IMG/VR virus record: IMGVR_UViG_3300020442_000016
Location: 1 to 64,000 of that record
Direction: 5' to 3' (one strand)
DNA: 64,000 nucleotides
From: a virus
In this document: piece by piece, positions 8,140 through 15,672 of the stretch
How positions within the stretch are numbered: position 1 is the first letter of the stretch
Layout of the letters: every line of letters begins with the position of its first letter
Program-made: the position numbers and the translations under genes
The notes under the pieces: model-generated
The model's input: only the letters and a program-made list of their open reading frames with translations
What the model was told of the DNA's origin: nothing
The model's database searches: none

Positions 8140-8865
8140 ATGGCATATTCAGAGCCTAATGGTTTTAGGAGGTTTTATGATCTTGTAGCATCTGGTGCCA
8201 AGGAGCCATCGAGGTCTAACCTATTTTCCGTGTTTATCGGGATACCTCCTGTGCTGCGTGCTAACGAAAACTTTGATTTCAAAGAATACCAAGAAACTAT
8301 CAACTATTTCGCGGATTCTGTAACTGTTCCTGGTAGGAGAATTACTACAGGTCAAGTTAGAGACGTTGGTGCAATGCGTCGTTTTGCTACTGACACCGCT
8401 TTTGGAGATGCAGCATTCTCATTCATCCTTACAAAGGACATGTATGCACGCACATTCTTTGAAAGATGGATGAATTACACTGCATCAGACGCAGAAAATC
8501 GTGTTACACTGTATGATCAATATACAACTAACATTATTATAAGTAAGTGGGAGTCTGGGTCAGGTGTTAAATATAAGGACGCTTTGACTGATGCAGAGCT
8601 TCGCTTAAATAGAGTCACTGGTGTATGGCAGATGTATGGGGCATTCCCTTATGACATGTCTGCTATGAATTTGACTAACGGACCCACAGATCTCATCAAG
8701 GTAGATGTTAAATTCTACTATGAGAGATATAGATTTGACACTGTATCAGAGAATATCTCCTTTGATGCAAACAAAGCTGATCGTGTTGTTAACCAATTCT
8801 CCGATGTCGCTAGGACATTGGGTATTCCTATGGCACAGGCAGATGTCGCCAGATATGGCATCTAA
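8140..8865 (+). CDS. 54: Tail tube-like protein, probably gp54 tube initiator
   Basis: 241 residues with a tail-tube fold pattern: SRSNLFSVFIGIPP, FADSVTVPGRRITTGQV, TAFGDAAFSFILTKDM, FFERWMNYTAS, GAFPYDMSAMNLTN and KVDVKFYYERYRF. This is shared by T4 gp19 and gp54. Because it lies beside genes 48, 26 and the hub genes rather than beside a sheath gene, gp54 (which caps the hub with gp48) is the better guess. A TAAATA box overlaps its stop. Confidence 0.65.
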   Translation: MAYSEPNGFRRFYDLVASGAKEPSRSNLFSVFIGIPPVLRANENFDFKEYQETINYFADSVTVPGRRITTGQVRDVGAMRRFATDTAFGDAAFSFILTKDMYARTFFERWMNYTASDAENRVTLYDQYTTNIIISKWESGSGVKYKDALTDAELRLNRVTGVWQMYGAFPYDMSAMNLTNGPTDLIKVDVKFYYERYRFDTVSENISFDANKADRVVNQFSDVARTLGIPMAQADVARYGI

Positions 8866-8889: not shown

Positions 8890-9594
8890 ATGCCTTTACC
8901 TAAGCTTGCAATTCCTGAATATGAATTGACACTTCCGATTACTGGTCAAAAGGTTAATTATAGACCTTTCCTTGTAAAAGAAGAGAAACTACTATATCTT
9001 GCAATGGAATCGCAAGATGAGAAACAGATGGTTAAAGCAGTTAAGACTATCATCAAAAACTGCACAAACCTGAAACAAAAAATTGAGTCACTTGCCACTT
9101 TTGAGATTGAGTATATCTTCCTTCGCATTCGCTCTAAAGCGGTTGCTGAAGTGAGTGAATTCAAAGTCACTTGCCCTGACGATGACACAACAATGGTCGA
9201 AGTTTCTGTGCCTCTAGAGGAAGTTGAGCTCAACATCCCTGAAGGACACAAGCAGAAGATCATGCTCAATGATGATATTGGTATCAAGATGAAGTATCCT
9301 TCACTGGATCTCTTTATCAACCAAAACATGAAAGATGAAGCAGATCTAGATGATATCTTTGATCTTGCTGCGCAGTGTATTGAGGCAGTATATGACACCG
9401 AAGAAATTCACACTGATTTCACGAAAGCAGAAGCAATCGAGTTTCTTGAGAATCTGAATTCTGATCAATTTGCTAAGATTCAGACATTCTTTGAAACTAT
9501 GCCCAAACTGTCTTATACCTTGAATGTCAAGAATCCTAAGACAGGTGTAGATAATGAAATTAAACTTGAGGGACTAGCGGCTTTTTTCGCCTAA
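8890..9594 (+). CDS. 26: gp26-like baseplate hub assembly protein / tail chaperone
   Basis: 234 residues. It matches the T4 baseplate gp26-type family: N-terminal LTLPITGQKVNYRPFLVKEEK, AMESQDEKQMVKAVKTIIKN and a central acidic region, ending LEGLAAFFA. In T4 it acts in hub assembly and is not clearly part of the finished particle. The last codons read GCT TTT TTC GCC TAA, which places a perfect T-TTT-TTC slippery heptamer two codons before the stop. A -1 slip would continue into the next ORF, as in tail-chaperone G/GT genes. Confidence 0.8.
   Translation: MPLPKLAIPEYELTLPITGQKVNYRPFLVKEEKLLYLAMESQDEKQMVKAVKTIIKNCTNLKQKIESLATFEIEYIFLRIRSKAVAEVSEFKVTCPDDDTTMVEVSVPLEEVELNIPEGHKQKIMLNDDIGIKMKYPSLDLFINQNMKDEADLDDIFDLAAQCIEAVYDTEEIHTDFTKAEAIEFLENLNSDQFAKIQTFFETMPKLSYTLNVKNPKTGVDNEIKLEGLAAFFA
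9582..9588 (+). promoter_or_regulatory. Probable -1 ribosomal frameshift site (T TTT TTC)
   Basis: In the gp26 frame the bases are read as T TTT TTC at codons 231-233. After a -1 shift the frame reads CGC CTA AGC CTA ATG and enters the 61-residue ORF at 9600 without a stop, giving a fused product of about 298 residues ending at 9785. Confidence 0.6.
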
Positions 9595-9599
9595 GCCTA

Positions 9600-9785
9600 A
9601 TGCATAATAGTCTTGAAAATTACTACAAGACTAACTTTGCATTAGTGCAGCATCACAAATACAGTCTCACTGAGATTGAAAATTTGATGCCTTGGGAAAG
9701 AGATGTATATGTGAATCTTTTATTGGCTCACCTCGCTGAAGAGGAAAGACGCCAGAAACAAGATCAATCACGAATGTCACTTTAA
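9600..9785 (+). CDS. Small ORF, probable frameshift extension of gp26
   Basis: 61 residues (MHNSLENYYKTNFALVQHHK, then EIENLMPWERDVYVNLLLAH). It lies in the -1 frame relative to gene 26, 5 nt after its stop, and is connected by the slippery heptamer at 9582-9588. A MPWERDVY pattern resembles the C-terminal T domains of tail assembly chaperones. The codons between the slip site and this ATG are open, so the ATG may not be used as an independent start. It ends TAATGG, overlapping the first tape-measure-like gene. In T4 a gene for gp51 follows gene 26, but gp51 is much longer. Confidence 0.7.
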   Translation: MHNSLENYYKTNFALVQHHKYSLTEIENLMPWERDVYVNLLLAHLAEEERRQKQDQSRMSL

Positions 9786-12751
9786 TGGCAGAAGCAACTA
9801 TTAGAAAGTTTGTAAAGATCAAACCAATGACGGGTAAAACCAACTTTGGTCAGTCTTTTAATGCCTTGCGTTTATCTTTCAATAGAATTGGTGGTGGTGT
9901 AGAAGGAATCGGACATAACTTAAAAGAGACTACAACTCTATTAGAATTTCAGACAAAATTCTTTTCTGATAAAGGTAGGGAAGATGTAAAAGAGATTCAG
10001 GATGATGTCAAGAAAGAAGTCTCTTTGTGGTCTAGGGTTAAAACATTTCTCAAGAAGAAGAGAGCAACAAAGAAGAGAAAGGTAGCAGAGCAAGCCTCCG
10101 AGGAAATGGCGAAGGAGGTGCCGAAAGAGGTAGATAAAGGTAAGAAGAAAATGAAGAAACCGATGGGTTTCTTCAGTAAGTTGATGGGATTCTTAGGGAC
10201 CATCTTCAAATACTTTATTGTATTTGGTGCCTTAGACTGGTTAAGTAAGAATGGCGATAAGATCGTAAAGGTTGCCAGACTATTTTGGACGATAGGTAAA
10301 TTCGTCTTCAAATTGACGAGCCTTGCAATAGGCTCAATCATGGATGGACTGACCAATATCTTTGGTCGTGGATTCAATGAGTCAGGTATTAAGAGAGGAT
10401 TCCGCTTTGTTGGTGGAATACTTCAACTCGCTGGAGGCTTGATGGGTCTCCGCTATTTGATGAGACCATGGAAACTTGTCACTGACGCAAGAATGGTCAT
10501 GGGCATGTTCCAGAATTTGGGCAAACAGAATGCCGCCACAGAGCAGCGTCAGCAGGCATTCAAAAACGGGTATATTGATAAAGAAACGGGCAGACCTTAT
10601 ACTAAGCAAGAGTATGAGGCGATGCGTAAAGCCGCCAAGCGTAAAGGTAAGCTTGGTGAGTTTGAAGGTAGATTTAAGAGCACACGCGGTCCACTAGGTA
10701 GAGCTAAGGACAATATAGGTCGTAGAGCTGGCAATATCTACAAAGGTGCCAAGGGCAGAGCGGGTGGTGCCTTTAATAGATTCAAAGGCTCCAAGATGGG
10801 TATGCGCTCTAGTGGAGCGCTGAAGAGAATTGGTGGTGGTAGTGTTAAAGGTGGACTAGCAACTGGTGCATTCGCTGCTGTGGGTGGTATCACTCGCACA
10901 ATGTCAGGTCTTGCATCTGGTGAAGCAGAAGGTAGAGCAGTTGGTGCTGGTGTAGGTCAGGCAGCTGGATCTATTGCTGGTGCAGCAGCAGTCACTGCTA
11001 TCGCACCTTTCCTAGGTCCTTTGGCACCTATGATTGGTAGTGCCATTGGTGGTTTCTTAGGTGAGAAACTTGGTGCCTTTATTGGTGACACTATGCAAGG
11101 CATAGTTGAGCCACTTAAGCAGCTCTTCAGTATTAGTATGGAGGTGATAGGTGCTGCATTCAAACCTCTCTTGGATGAAGCGATGGGCTTCCTCAGTGTA
11201 TTCTTTGAGGTTATTGGTGGTTTAGTTGGATTCTTGCTTGGTGGTGCATTCAAAATTATTGGTGCATTTGTCAAGTTTGTATTTGGCACGGGATTTAAGA
11301 TTATTGGTGAGACAGTTTCTCTTGTTGTAAGGAATGTCAAGAGATTGATGAATCCTGGCAGTGTTGCTGCTGGTATCTTTGACTTCTTTACCTTTAACGC
11401 ATTTGATGTAGATAAAGGTGGTAAAGCTGCAGGTGGTAAGGTTGATGCACCTAAGATGGCTGAGGGTGGGTATGTAAACCTACCTCAAATCACACTCGCA
11501 AAGTTTATTGGCACAGGTATTCTAAAGACCATTAAAACGGTCATGCAGTTGCTTGGACCTTTGGGTGAAGTAATTAGAGCAAATATTTCTGGAGAGCTTG
11601 CTAAGTTAGACGGCATCTTTAATCAATTCTCAGAGGGTGGACCATTTGATGGATCCATAGAGATGCGTGCAAGAGGTGGTGCTGTTAGGAAGAAGCGTCC
11701 TAAACAAGGTACTACCTCCGAAGACAGAATGGCAGGGGGTGAAAAATTTAAGAAACCCAAACCATATGCTAAGGGTGGAAAGATCTTCCTTCACTGGACA
11801 GGTGGCGGATATAACTTCAAATCTAAAGGTCACTACCACAGCATCATTCAGGGTGATGGTAGTGTTTATAAGGCACACCCATATGATCAGAGATCTGGTG
11901 TTGCACATACCTACCTAAGAAACAGTAGTGGTATTGGTATGAGTATCGCTGCTATGGGTGGTAATCCAGATTACTGGAGTGTCCCTGTAAAGGATGTGCA
12001 GGTCGATGCATTGGCAAAAGAAATTGCCAACGTTGGTAAAGCATGGGGATGGAGTCCTAATGATATCAACGTTAAGAATGTGATGACTCATGCTGAGGCA
12101 GCATCTGGTAAAGATGGTCTGTTGCCTAAGAATGATAACTATGGTCCTACAATGTGGGGTGGTGATGGCACACGTTGGGACCTCTTACGTCTGAAGAAAG
12201 GTGGTAAAGACGGTGAGGGTGGTAATATCATCCGTGCTAAGGCACGCGGTTATATGGGTGGTGATTCCACTGTTAGAGAAATTGATGGTACATCCACTTC
12301 CCCTAAAACTGCAGCGACACCTGGTGCAGCAGCTCCGAGTGATAGTTCTGGGACAGATTTACCTGAGACGGAGCAGAAAGAAGAGAAGAAAGACACCATT
12401 GCTACTAGAGTTGAGTCAATCAAAGAAGCAATTAACAAGCTCAAGGAAGCATTTGGTGGTGGATTCTCTGAGTCATTGAATCCTGCTCCACCAGCTCCTG
12501 CTCCTACTAGCACTGCATCTTCTGGTGCTGGTGTCAGTATGAGTGCAACAGACACTGCAGTGAATCAACAGATCACAGCTATGAATGTATTGAAAGAGAA
12601 AGCTCACCAGGTTGAGAAGGAAGAGCTGGAAGAATCTCTTCCAATACCTGTAATGGTCAAAGTACCTGTGGAAATCCCGATAAATAATGGGGGCGGCGTG
12701 TCAAATAGAATCGTCGAAGTTAACACTACAAATGGAATGCTAACTAGGTAA
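9785..12751 (+). CDS. Tape-measure-like tail protein with amidase-type domain
   Basis: 988 residues. The N-terminal third is basic and helical (residues 90-135 rich in K/R), followed by hydrophobic helices around residues 135-240 and 370-530 (Gly/Ala-rich AVGAGVGQAAGSIAGAAAV). A cell-wall module follows at about 660-810: LHWTGGG (H670), AHTYLRN (H708), MTHAEA (H769) and RWDLLRL. This resembles Amidase_2/PGRP zinc amidases that cut N-acetylmuramoyl-L-alanine bonds. The C-terminus is Pro/Ala/Ser-rich, then coiled coil. Long hydrophobic-helix proteins just after a tail chaperone usually set tail length. It is paralogous to the next gene over much of its length. Confidence 0.7.
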   Translation: MAEATIRKFVKIKPMTGKTNFGQSFNALRLSFNRIGGGVEGIGHNLKETTTLLEFQTKFFSDKGREDVKEIQDDVKKEVSLWSRVKTFLKKKRATKKRKVAEQASEEMAKEVPKEVDKGKKKMKKPMGFFSKLMGFLGTIFKYFIVFGALDWLSKNGDKIVKVARLFWTIGKFVFKLTSLAIGSIMDGLTNIFGRGFNESGIKRGFRFVGGILQLAGGLMGLRYLMRPWKLVTDARMVMGMFQNLGKQNAATEQRQQAFKNGYIDKETGRPYTKQEYEAMRKAAKRKGKLGEFEGRFKSTRGPLGRAKDNIGRRAGNIYKGAKGRAGGAFNRFKGSKMGMRSSGALKRIGGGSVKGGLATGAFAAVGGITRTMSGLASGEAEGRAVGAGVGQAAGSIAGAAAVTAIAPFLGPLAPMIGSAIGGFLGEKLGAFIGDTMQGIVEPLKQLFSISMEVIGAAFKPLLDEAMGFLSVFFEVIGGLVGFLLGGAFKIIGAFVKFVFGTGFKIIGETVSLVVRNVKRLMNPGSVAAGIFDFFTFNAFDVDKGGKAAGGKVDAPKMAEGGYVNLPQITLAKFIGTGILKTIKTVMQLLGPLGEVIRANISGELAKLDGIFNQFSEGGPFDGSIEMRARGGAVRKKRPKQGTTSEDRMAGGEKFKKPKPYAKGGKIFLHWTGGGYNFKSKGHYHSIIQGDGSVYKAHPYDQRSGVAHTYLRNSSGIGMSIAAMGGNPDYWSVPVKDVQVDALAKEIANVGKAWGWSPNDINVKNVMTHAEAASGKDGLLPKNDNYGPTMWGGDGTRWDLLRLKKGGKDGEGGNIIRAKARGYMGGDSTVREIDGTSTSPKTAATPGAAAPSDSSGTDLPETEQKEEKKDTIATRVESIKEAINKLKEAFGGGFSESLNPAPPAPAPTSTASSGAGVSMSATDTAVNQQITAMNVLKEKAHQVEKEELEESLPIPVMVKVPVEIPINNGGGVSNRIVEVNTTNGMLTR

Positions 12752-15672
12752 TGGCAGATATCCAGCAACCACAAGTAAAAATACAGAGAGCTCGGCTCTA
12801 TAAGTATGTTTCCTTCAAAGGGAAGTTGACTGGTGCTGCCAAGAAATACACTCCACTCACTGCAGCCAAGAGACTGACAGATGTAGAGAGTGATATGAGT
12901 TTGGGGATGAAGAATCTCCTAGGTGGTGTTAATAGTATTGGTGCAACACTGAATAGTGTAGCTATGACATGCGAGAATATGAATCTCGCTATCAAAGAGA
13001 GTGTTGCAGCTCAAGTAGCGTCAGCTAACAGTATTACAAGAAGCAAAAAGAAAGCTGACACTGATAAGAAAAGATTGCAGCGTAGGAAAGCTGCTGCAGA
13101 TAAGAAGAAAGAGCAGGAGGCAGGCAGAGACAGCGCTGAAGATGAAGTTGAAATGACCTCTAAGGCTCATTTCCTGAATGCCATGGAGAATTTCAAGGCT
13201 GCAGGAAAGAGTGCTCTGAGTGGCATCCTAGGGACTCTAGGTAAGTTGTTTATGTGGATAATGGGTGGATTTATCAAATTCGCCATATTTAATTGGATCA
13301 TTGAAAATCCAGATAAAGTCCAGAAGTTAGCTAAAGGACTGTTTGCGATAGGTAAAACTATCTACAAAGTCACCAGCTTTCTGGTTGGTATGTCATTTGA
13401 TGGCATTACAAAATTCCTTGAGAATCCAATCAGTCTGAAAGGTCTCTTAGGATTTGGGCAATTCCTTATAGGGTTTGTACCTCTGTTAGGTGCATACGCA
13501 TTCCTTAAGAATCCCAAGGCGATGATCTCTGGTCTCGCCAATGTGCTCAAGGGATTGATTACAGGTCTGGGTAACTTGATGAAGGGTGGTAAACTCTTCA
13601 GTAAGATGAAGACCTTTGGTCAGAAGTTTAGACCAGGCACGAGAGCTGGAGCTATCTTGGGCTCTGTTGCAGCTGGCACAGCTGCGGCTTCACTGGTTGC
13701 AGCAGGTGGTGGTAGCACCTCTGAGGTAGTTGGTGCAGGTGTTGGTGCAGGTGCTGGTCAAGCAATCGGTGCTTCTCTGGGTGCAGCAACAGGCATACCT
13801 GGCATGGGTATGGTTGCTGGTGCTGCTGGTGGTTTCCTAGGTGGAAAGATAGGACAGTCTATCGGTGGCATGATGGAGCCACTGGTCACTCCTATTAAAG
13901 AATTCTTTACAATGATGAAGGAGGTGTTTGATGCTGCTATCGCACCTATTAAGGATGGTCTGACTGAATTCTTTGATACTCTGGGAGCAGTGATGGGAGG
14001 ATTCATCGAATTCCTCAAGCCCCATATGCCTATGATCAAGAAGATCGTTGGCACAAGCGTTAAAGTTATATTTGCACCACTGCTATTACTGCTGAAAGGA
14101 TTGACGGCAGTCCTTAAATTCTTTGCACCTAGTGGTAAAGCTGAGAAAGATAAAGAAGTCAAAGGTAAGGCTGCTGGTGGTAAGATAGTCACACCTTCAA
14201 TCAGTCCACCGCCTGGTTTACCTGAGGCGGAAGAAGGTGGCACAATGACCATACCTGGTCAGATTACAGGGTGGTTTAGCCACCAAATGGAAGAAGTCAA
14301 GAAGTTACTGAGTGGATTCGGTGAGCTTCTTATGCTTCCATTCAAAGCAATCGCCAATGGTTTAGCTGGTGCAGTTGGTGATATGGTCGGCAATATTCCT
14401 ATTGTTGGTGGTTTAATCAAAGGCGCTGGTAATTTACTAGGCAACGTATTCGGTTGGAATAAGGGAAGGGCAGCAGGTGGATGGATCCAAGGTCCGAAGT
14501 CAGGTTATCCTGTGTCCCTTGATGGTGGTAGATCTGTATCTTTCATTGGTCATGGCACAGAATGGGTGGGGTATAAAAAGGCGGCTGCTGGTGGTGCCTT
14601 TGTTGTCCCATTTGATACTCCTGCAACTGACAGAAATCATGGACTCACCTCCCTAAGATGGAGAGAGGCCGCGGCGGGTGGTTATCAACTACCACAATTC
14701 TCTGGTGGTGGTGAGTTTGATGCAGTCTTAGATCTCATCGCTAAGTATGAGTCGGGCTCAGGTGGATATGAGGCAATGAATCCAAACACTGTGCTCAAGG
14801 GTGCCACTAAGATGACTATCTCAGAGGTTGCTCGTAAGGCAACTGGTGCAGTGGGTATGTATCAAAACATGCCTGAATTCTTGGTAAGCAGAGCTCGCGC
14901 AGTTGGGCTGAATCCTGCTAGAGCAAAGTATAATAAGGCAAACCAGAGAAAGATCGCTAAGTATCTCATCGGTAAGGGTCAAGCAGGTGTGACTCCTCAG
15001 ATGATGAAGGATGATCCTGATGAGGCAATGATCAGACTGTCTAGAGTCTGGGCTGCAATCCCTGTCCCTAAGGATATGCAGGGGCATACAAAGATGCTCA
15101 AGAAAGGTGAGTCATACTATGCAGGTGTAGGTAGCAATAAAGCACACATCACCCCTGAGATGATGTATAAGGCGATGGCAGCATCTGGTAGTGTCACTGC
15201 AACAGATGCATCCACTGGTGATACGACACCAGCCTATGAGAAGAATCGTCAAAGGAATAATGAGAGTAAGAGCGGCAGCTCAGACAGCTCAGGAGAAGAC
15301 AAGAAAACAGAAGGTAAGTCACCTATTGATAGACTGAAAGAGTCCTTCAATATGCTGAAGGAAGCATTCAGCCCAGACATGGTGAGCTCACTTAAACCTA
15401 GTGCTACTGCTGGATCTACTATTGATAGTAAAGAGCAGGACCGTAAGGAAAATAAGGCAAACGCTATTAAACAGAGAGCTGAAGAAATTCAGGCATATCA
15501 ACAGGCAAGCAGTCAAGCAATCGGTGCAGTGCAGAAACAAGGTGCAGCTGCAGGTGACACAGAGGTCCTGAGTTTCCTACCTGGTAAGGATAAATATGAC
15601 GTAGATGATTTCTTCCAGCCTAAGTTTGGGTTGGTTGCTGATTCCAATACGGAAGCCTTTAACTTGATGTAA
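12751..15672 (+). CDS. Tape-measure-like tail protein with lysozyme-like domain
   Basis: 973 residues, starting in a TAATGG overlap with its paralogue. Shared features with the upstream gene: a charged coiled-coil N-terminus, a helix block with NPDKVQKLAKGLFAIGKTIY-like spacing (residues 150-280), an Ala/Gly block (VVGAGVGAGAGQAIGASLG) and a C-terminal DRLKESFNMLKEAF segment. The cell-wall module differs: residues 655-800 (DLIAKYESGSGGYEAMN with E667, then AVGMYQNMPEF and MIRLSRVWAAIP) look like a lysozyme or transglycosylase fold with a catalytic Glu. It likely cuts glycan strands during DNA entry. Confidence 0.7.
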   Translation: MADIQQPQVKIQRARLYKYVSFKGKLTGAAKKYTPLTAAKRLTDVESDMSLGMKNLLGGVNSIGATLNSVAMTCENMNLAIKESVAAQVASANSITRSKKKADTDKKRLQRRKAAADKKKEQEAGRDSAEDEVEMTSKAHFLNAMENFKAAGKSALSGILGTLGKLFMWIMGGFIKFAIFNWIIENPDKVQKLAKGLFAIGKTIYKVTSFLVGMSFDGITKFLENPISLKGLLGFGQFLIGFVPLLGAYAFLKNPKAMISGLANVLKGLITGLGNLMKGGKLFSKMKTFGQKFRPGTRAGAILGSVAAGTAAASLVAAGGGSTSEVVGAGVGAGAGQAIGASLGAATGIPGMGMVAGAAGGFLGGKIGQSIGGMMEPLVTPIKEFFTMMKEVFDAAIAPIKDGLTEFFDTLGAVMGGFIEFLKPHMPMIKKIVGTSVKVIFAPLLLLLKGLTAVLKFFAPSGKAEKDKEVKGKAAGGKIVTPSISPPPGLPEAEEGGTMTIPGQITGWFSHQMEEVKKLLSGFGELLMLPFKAIANGLAGAVGDMVGNIPIVGGLIKGAGNLLGNVFGWNKGRAAGGWIQGPKSGYPVSLDGGRSVSFIGHGTEWVGYKKAAAGGAFVVPFDTPATDRNHGLTSLRWREAAAGGYQLPQFSGGGEFDAVLDLIAKYESGSGGYEAMNPNTVLKGATKMTISEVARKATGAVGMYQNMPEFLVSRARAVGLNPARAKYNKANQRKIAKYLIGKGQAGVTPQMMKDDPDEAMIRLSRVWAAIPVPKDMQGHTKMLKKGESYYAGVGSNKAHITPEMMYKAMAASGSVTATDASTGDTTPAYEKNRQRNNESKSGSSDSSGEDKKTEGKSPIDRLKESFNMLKEAFSPDMVSSLKPSATAGSTIDSKEQDRKENKANAIKQRAEEIQAYQQASSQAIGAVQKQGAAAGDTEVLSFLPGKDKYDVDDFFQPKFGLVADSNTEAFNLM

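Follow-up and report, generated by a model that had tools for sequence, protein, structure and literature searches.

Our analysis indicates that gp26 of a T4-like cyanophage probably serves as the short form of a tail assembly chaperone and that a -1 slip on the heptamer T TTT TTC near the end of its gene very probably yields a longer gp26-gp51 fusion. The gene lies in the first 64,000 nucleotides of the uncultivated virus record IMGVR_UViG_3300020442_000016 (98,768 bases), a stretch called the window below, and the nearest named relative at the gp26 locus is cyanophage P-TIM40 (DNA identity 73%). In the mechanism that we propose, the majority of ribosomes would read gp26 through to the TAA at 9592-9594 and release a 234-residue short form, and a minority, with T TTT TTC paired to Phe-tRNAs in the P and A sites, would re-pair on TTT TTT one base upstream and read on in the -1 frame to produce a 298-residue gp26-gp51 fusion (TAC-NC). 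Slippage itself, its efficiency, the stimulatory role of the neighbouring RNA signals and the chaperone activity of the products are what we infer from the pattern of the sequences. The features concerned are the following:

8140-8865, plus strand: tail tube gene, the upstream neighbour (PF23849, 8e-7; phrog_45, 2.8e-41)
8890-9594, plus strand: gp26-like gene, the putative short form (TAC-N), 234 amino acids with an ATG start (PF12322 T4_baseplate, E 6e-69; phrog_150, E 1.8e-74)
9568-9573, plus strand: Shine-Dalgarno-like GAGGGA, with 9 nt from GAGGG to the heptamer
9582-9588, plus strand: slippery heptamer T TTT TTC in X XXY YYZ register, conserved as T TTT TT[C/T/A] in 129/129 junctions
9588-9785, plus strand: predicted -1 frame extension (TAC-C, gp51-like), 65 amino acids encoded by 9588-9782, aligned with its relatives (phrog_634, E 1.1e-30)
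9592-9594, plus strand: zero-frame stop codon TAA of gp26, straight after the heptamer
9595-9648, plus strand: predicted RNA hairpin starting 6 nt past the heptamer, with an outer stem (9595-9604/9638-9648) and an inner stem (9608-9615/9626-9633)
9785-12751, plus strand: very large ORF of 988 amino acids, a tape-measure candidate by position and size (PF01510 Amidase_2; phrog_2588 and others)
12751-15672, plus strand: second very large ORF, 973 amino acids (phrog_1200, phrog_2588 and phrog_5867, common to both large ORFs)

The 3' end of gp26 reads GCG GCT TTT TTC GCC TAA. The initial annotation had placed the heptamer at 9582-9588 at the end of gp26, with the -1 frame open from there into an ORF that runs from an ATG at 9600 to 9785, and all of these coordinates hold; its expectation that RLSLM would follow the Phe-Phe pair also agrees with the -1 frame, which translates as RLSLMHNS... 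from that point. The gp26 product matches the PF12322 profile over the full domain (232.5 bits against a curated cut-off of 24.5). The 61-residue ORF that starts at the ATG is nested inside the -1 frame extension, and the predicted fusion of gp26 with this extension comprises 233 + 65 = 298 residues. The family matched by the -1 product, phrog_634, bears the name 'baseplate hub assembly catalyst' (gp51). The same product also matches the C-terminal part of phrog_150, which is an early hint that the two halves are parts of a single protein, and the name of phrog_634 probably covers only part of a protein here. No joined coding sequence is marked at the gp26/small-ORF junction in the related annotated records that we inspected, which are a sample rather than a full survey, so that the long chaperone is missing from these annotations.

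The case for frameshifting comes from the conservation of the junction rather than from the heptamer alone. TTTTTTC is not enriched in the window (9 occurrences seen against 14.3 expected), and its frequency is uninformative as evidence. Among the 56 ORFs of at least 100 amino acids left after overlap filtering, the site at 9582-9588 is the only in-frame T TTT TTN or A AAA AAN with a stop less than 40 codons away. We collected relatives from IMG/VR by two retrievals, one queried with gp26 and the other with just the small ORF, and removed duplicate junctions; the sequences that came from the second query were not selected for the heptamer. Both the -1 relation and a heptamer of the form T TTT TT[C/T/A] are present in 129 of 129 non-redundant junctions, with gp26 identities down to ~36%, which places the heptamer beyond chance. 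Together with the conservation of the extension, this bears out the -1 frameshift that had been proposed to join gp26 to the downstream ORF; neither loss of the heptamer nor a change of the frame relation, either of which had been named as counting against that proposal, was seen in these 129 relatives. Across the same junctions the zero-frame stop codon ends 3-27 nt past the heptamer, and 6 nt past it in most relatives. At the junctions L128, L135, L141, L148 and L158 it ends 27 nt past the heptamer, compared with 3-9 elsewhere, and the short form would there carry a tail of several extra residues. The L110 and L111 junctions carry T TTT TTA, on which HIV-1 also frameshifts.

The choice of synonymous codons points the same way. 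In all 75 representatives, defined by a gp26 identity below 75%, the codon preceding TTT ends in T (AGT, GCT, TCT, AAT, GAT, ACT or GGT) while the amino acid that it encodes varies, and the first Phe is always written TTT. Relative to codon usage in these genes, the constant third-base T has a log10 p of -19.9 and the TTT a further log10 p of -11.4, values that assume independent representatives, an assumption that holds only in part for related sequences. Elsewhere in these genes an in-frame T TTT TTN occurs 6 times per 17,339 codons. The heptamer is also kept in Vibrio schizotequatroviruses and in the phages Caulobacter Cr30, Stenotrophomonas Mendera, Agrobacterium OLIVR5, Acidovorax ACP17, Ochrobactrum OC, Methylophilales Melnitz-1 and Aeromonas AS-yj. 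In the Vibrio phages SD25 and K364, GTTTTT or CTTTTT stands at the gp26-like end and the -1 frame is still open to a gp51-like extension; these variants recall the GTTTTT signal reported for Vandenendeviridae (PMC12846349).

As regards the function of the two products, the initial annotation had located the junction just before tape-measure-like genes, and we find it between the tail tube gene and the two very large ORFs. Profile searches gave no tape-measure family match to either of these ORFs. In Cr30, the second gene downstream of the gp51-like gene is annotated as tape measure. The two adjacent ORFs at 9785-12751 and 12751-15672 are of near equal size and have PHROG families in common, with Amidase_2 in the first. 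The AlphaFold2 model of gp26 is confident (pLDDT 89) and the model of the extension is helical and of modest confidence (pLDDT 75), the two having been modelled apart and not as the fusion. Foldseek placed the HK97 chaperone 2OB9 among the top matches of the gp26 model (E 0.6, probability 0.47) and also returned 3FGX (TMt 0.55, E 5.8), both of them weak; the Foldseek search against the PDB gave no significant match, and a profile search of solved structures no meaningful one. Both 2OB9 and 3FGX are chaperones (PMC9603447). It is conceivable that the frameshift is real and that the fusion is a component of the baseplate hub instead of a transient tail assembly chaperone, as the traditional names of T4 gp26 and gp51 (hub subunit and hub assembly catalyst) and the weakness of the fold match to known chaperones would allow. 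We consider this unlikely, because the genes sit between the tail tube and the very large tape-measure-like ORFs, because a short and a long form made by a -1 slip are the hallmark of tail assembly chaperones, and because the T4-like genes are identified as chaperones in the title of Vladimirov, Gautam and Davidson (2022).

We therefore favour the chaperone reading, for which the gpG/gpGT system of phage lambda is the natural comparison: it likewise consists of a short chaperone and a -1 frameshifted long form, and it is encoded between the tail tube and tape-measure genes, a location that the cyanophage pair would share. Lambda differs in its slippery sequence, which is G GGA AAG, and the cyanophage site has a Shine-Dalgarno-like element and a hairpin beside it. 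In lambda the slip occurs at a low level; the segment shared by the two proteins attaches to the tape measure, and tail tube subunits are brought in by the T segment (PMC5009743). Atkins et al. (2016, PMC5009743) describe this system as conserved widely, with T4 as the exception. By analogy, many short and few long copies of the cyanophage chaperone would cover the tape-measure protein and bring in tail tube subunits.

The simplest reading of the aligned junctions is that translation would reach the small ORF through the junction, since the ATG is often absent and the residues around it are conserved. A separate origin by termination and reinitiation at the ATG at 9600, 5 nt past the gp26 stop codon, with the heptamer being incidental, would make the small ORF an independent protein. 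Such an ATG shortly past the stop is indeed present in the window and a separate small gene is annotated in public records, but through codon 14 of the open -1 frame 45 of the 75 relatives have no ATG and 25 of 75 have none of ATG, GTG and TTG. Moreover, the position of the ATG (residue 5) is variable, yet Leu at position 4 is found in 60/75 and His at position 6 in 69/75, and reinitiation gives no purpose to the invariant T before TTT TTY, so that we regard it as highly improbable. The earlier assignment of gp26 and the small ORF as counterparts of G and T is thus retained in that TAC-N would be joined to TAC-C by a -1 slip, and is given up in that the T part had been taken as a protein of its own from the ATG at 9600, a start that is not conserved whereas the residues preceding it are.

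The RNA signals around the heptamer look unusually well conserved. Upstream, pairing with the anti-Shine-Dalgarno sequence peaks 15-16 nt before the heptamer in the 75 representatives because of a GAG GGN element, in which GAG accounts for 40 of 57 Glu codons (27% elsewhere, p 2e-11) and GGA or GGG for 46 of 74 Gly codons (32% elsewhere, p 1e-7). In a synonymous-shuffle test this element is significant in aggregate and individually at p<0.05 in only 11% of sequences, because the conserved Glu-Gly itself accounts for part of the signal. Downstream, the predicted hairpin at 9595-9648 has a folding energy of -21.6 kcal/mol. Its z relative to shuffled sequences is -5.3, and of 2000 synonymous recodings of the window sequence not one folds as well. 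When the downstream RNA of the 75 representatives was compared with synonymous recodings of the same peptide, the mean z was -2.17 (s.e. 0.21) and 53% of the representatives fell individually below 0.05, compared with values of -0.1 to -0.7 for control stretches. The hairpin varies between lineages, and the complete form seen in the window is in part lineage-specific. The close clade has an inner stem with pairs changed on both sides and keeps the outer stem in only 70% of cells; RNAalifold on the 21 sequences of this clade recovered the inner stem only, plus a two-pair helix, with modest covariation.

Pairing of GAGGG with the 16S anti-Shine-Dalgarno and the hairpin 6 nt downstream would be probable stimulators of the slip. 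An upstream Shine-Dalgarno-like element, an X XXY YYZ heptamer and a closely spaced downstream stem-loop are likewise combined in E. coli dnaX, which differs in being another gene and in its heptamer, A AAA AAG instead of T TTT TTC. The dnaX slip yields the shorter of the two products (PMC5009743). That the long form should arise from transcriptional slippage, with RNA polymerase adding or dropping a base in the T run, is hardly credible, since, although the site is a T run and 18 of 75 relatives have runs of 7-8, 57 of 75 runs hold only 6 T, such slippage in bacteria has been described for runs of 9 (PMC5009743), and a Shine-Dalgarno-like element and a hairpin placed as ribosomal stimulators would be superfluous.

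The initial annotation did not know of a described system of this kind in T4-type phages. Frameshifting was reportedly found to be conserved in several T4-like groups by Vladimirov, Gautam and Davidson in 2022, with T4 itself said to use genes 26 and 51. The supposed novelty does not stand, as the chaperone genes of T4-like phages are named in that work (Vladimirov, Gautam and Davidson, 2022, Virology 566:9-15), which is credited in one citing passage with the poly-T -1 frameshift signals of the TAC-N genes of T4-like phages (PMC12846349) and is cited in another for T4-like phages with one short and one long gene (PMC10885494). As far as these passages describe them, the T4-like TAC-N/TAC-NC genes resemble the present ones in belonging to families 26/51 and in their poly-T frameshift signals, the present case being an uncultivated contig, and the cyanophage junction would be a further case of this already described frameshift. 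A literature search on frameshifting in cyanophage tail genes found nothing direct. The Shine-Dalgarno-like element and the hairpin may be new additions to the described system.

T4 itself can be compared as a natural control. Its gp26 is homologous to the short form, and its gp51, which matches phrog_634 (E 1.2e-23), consists of a gp26-like domain (PF12322) followed by the same C-terminal extension, so that T4 encodes both forms in two genes. Unlike in the cyanophage, genes 26 and 51 of T4 are separate and divergently transcribed and there is no heptamer; it is absent from all eight phages with separate 26 and 51 genes (T4 and seven others). In T4, L174, L175 and L176 the Phe-Phe pair is kept at the gp26 end and is written TTC TTT, a spelling that silently destroys the slippery site. 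A broader proposal, to which we give about even chances, is that T4-like cyanophages use a three-part, dnaX-like cassette of a Shine-Dalgarno-like element, T TTT TTY and a close, lineage-variable hairpin to fix how much short chaperone is made relative to the long form, and that T4-type phages lost this cassette, partly through silent changes, after the long form had a gene of its own. The phages that have separate genes and no heptamer thus offer a natural experiment on why the slippery site is retained, and the conserved cassette lends itself to reporter assays of how cyanobacterial ribosomes frameshift. Finally, at 1501-2795 of the Klebsiella phage phiKp_23 (Slopekvirus), a gene 51-like ORF with a gp26 domain and the extension adjoins a second ORF that ends in the gp26-like GLQQFLKVV; the two ORFs are co-directional, whereas their T4 counterparts are divergent.
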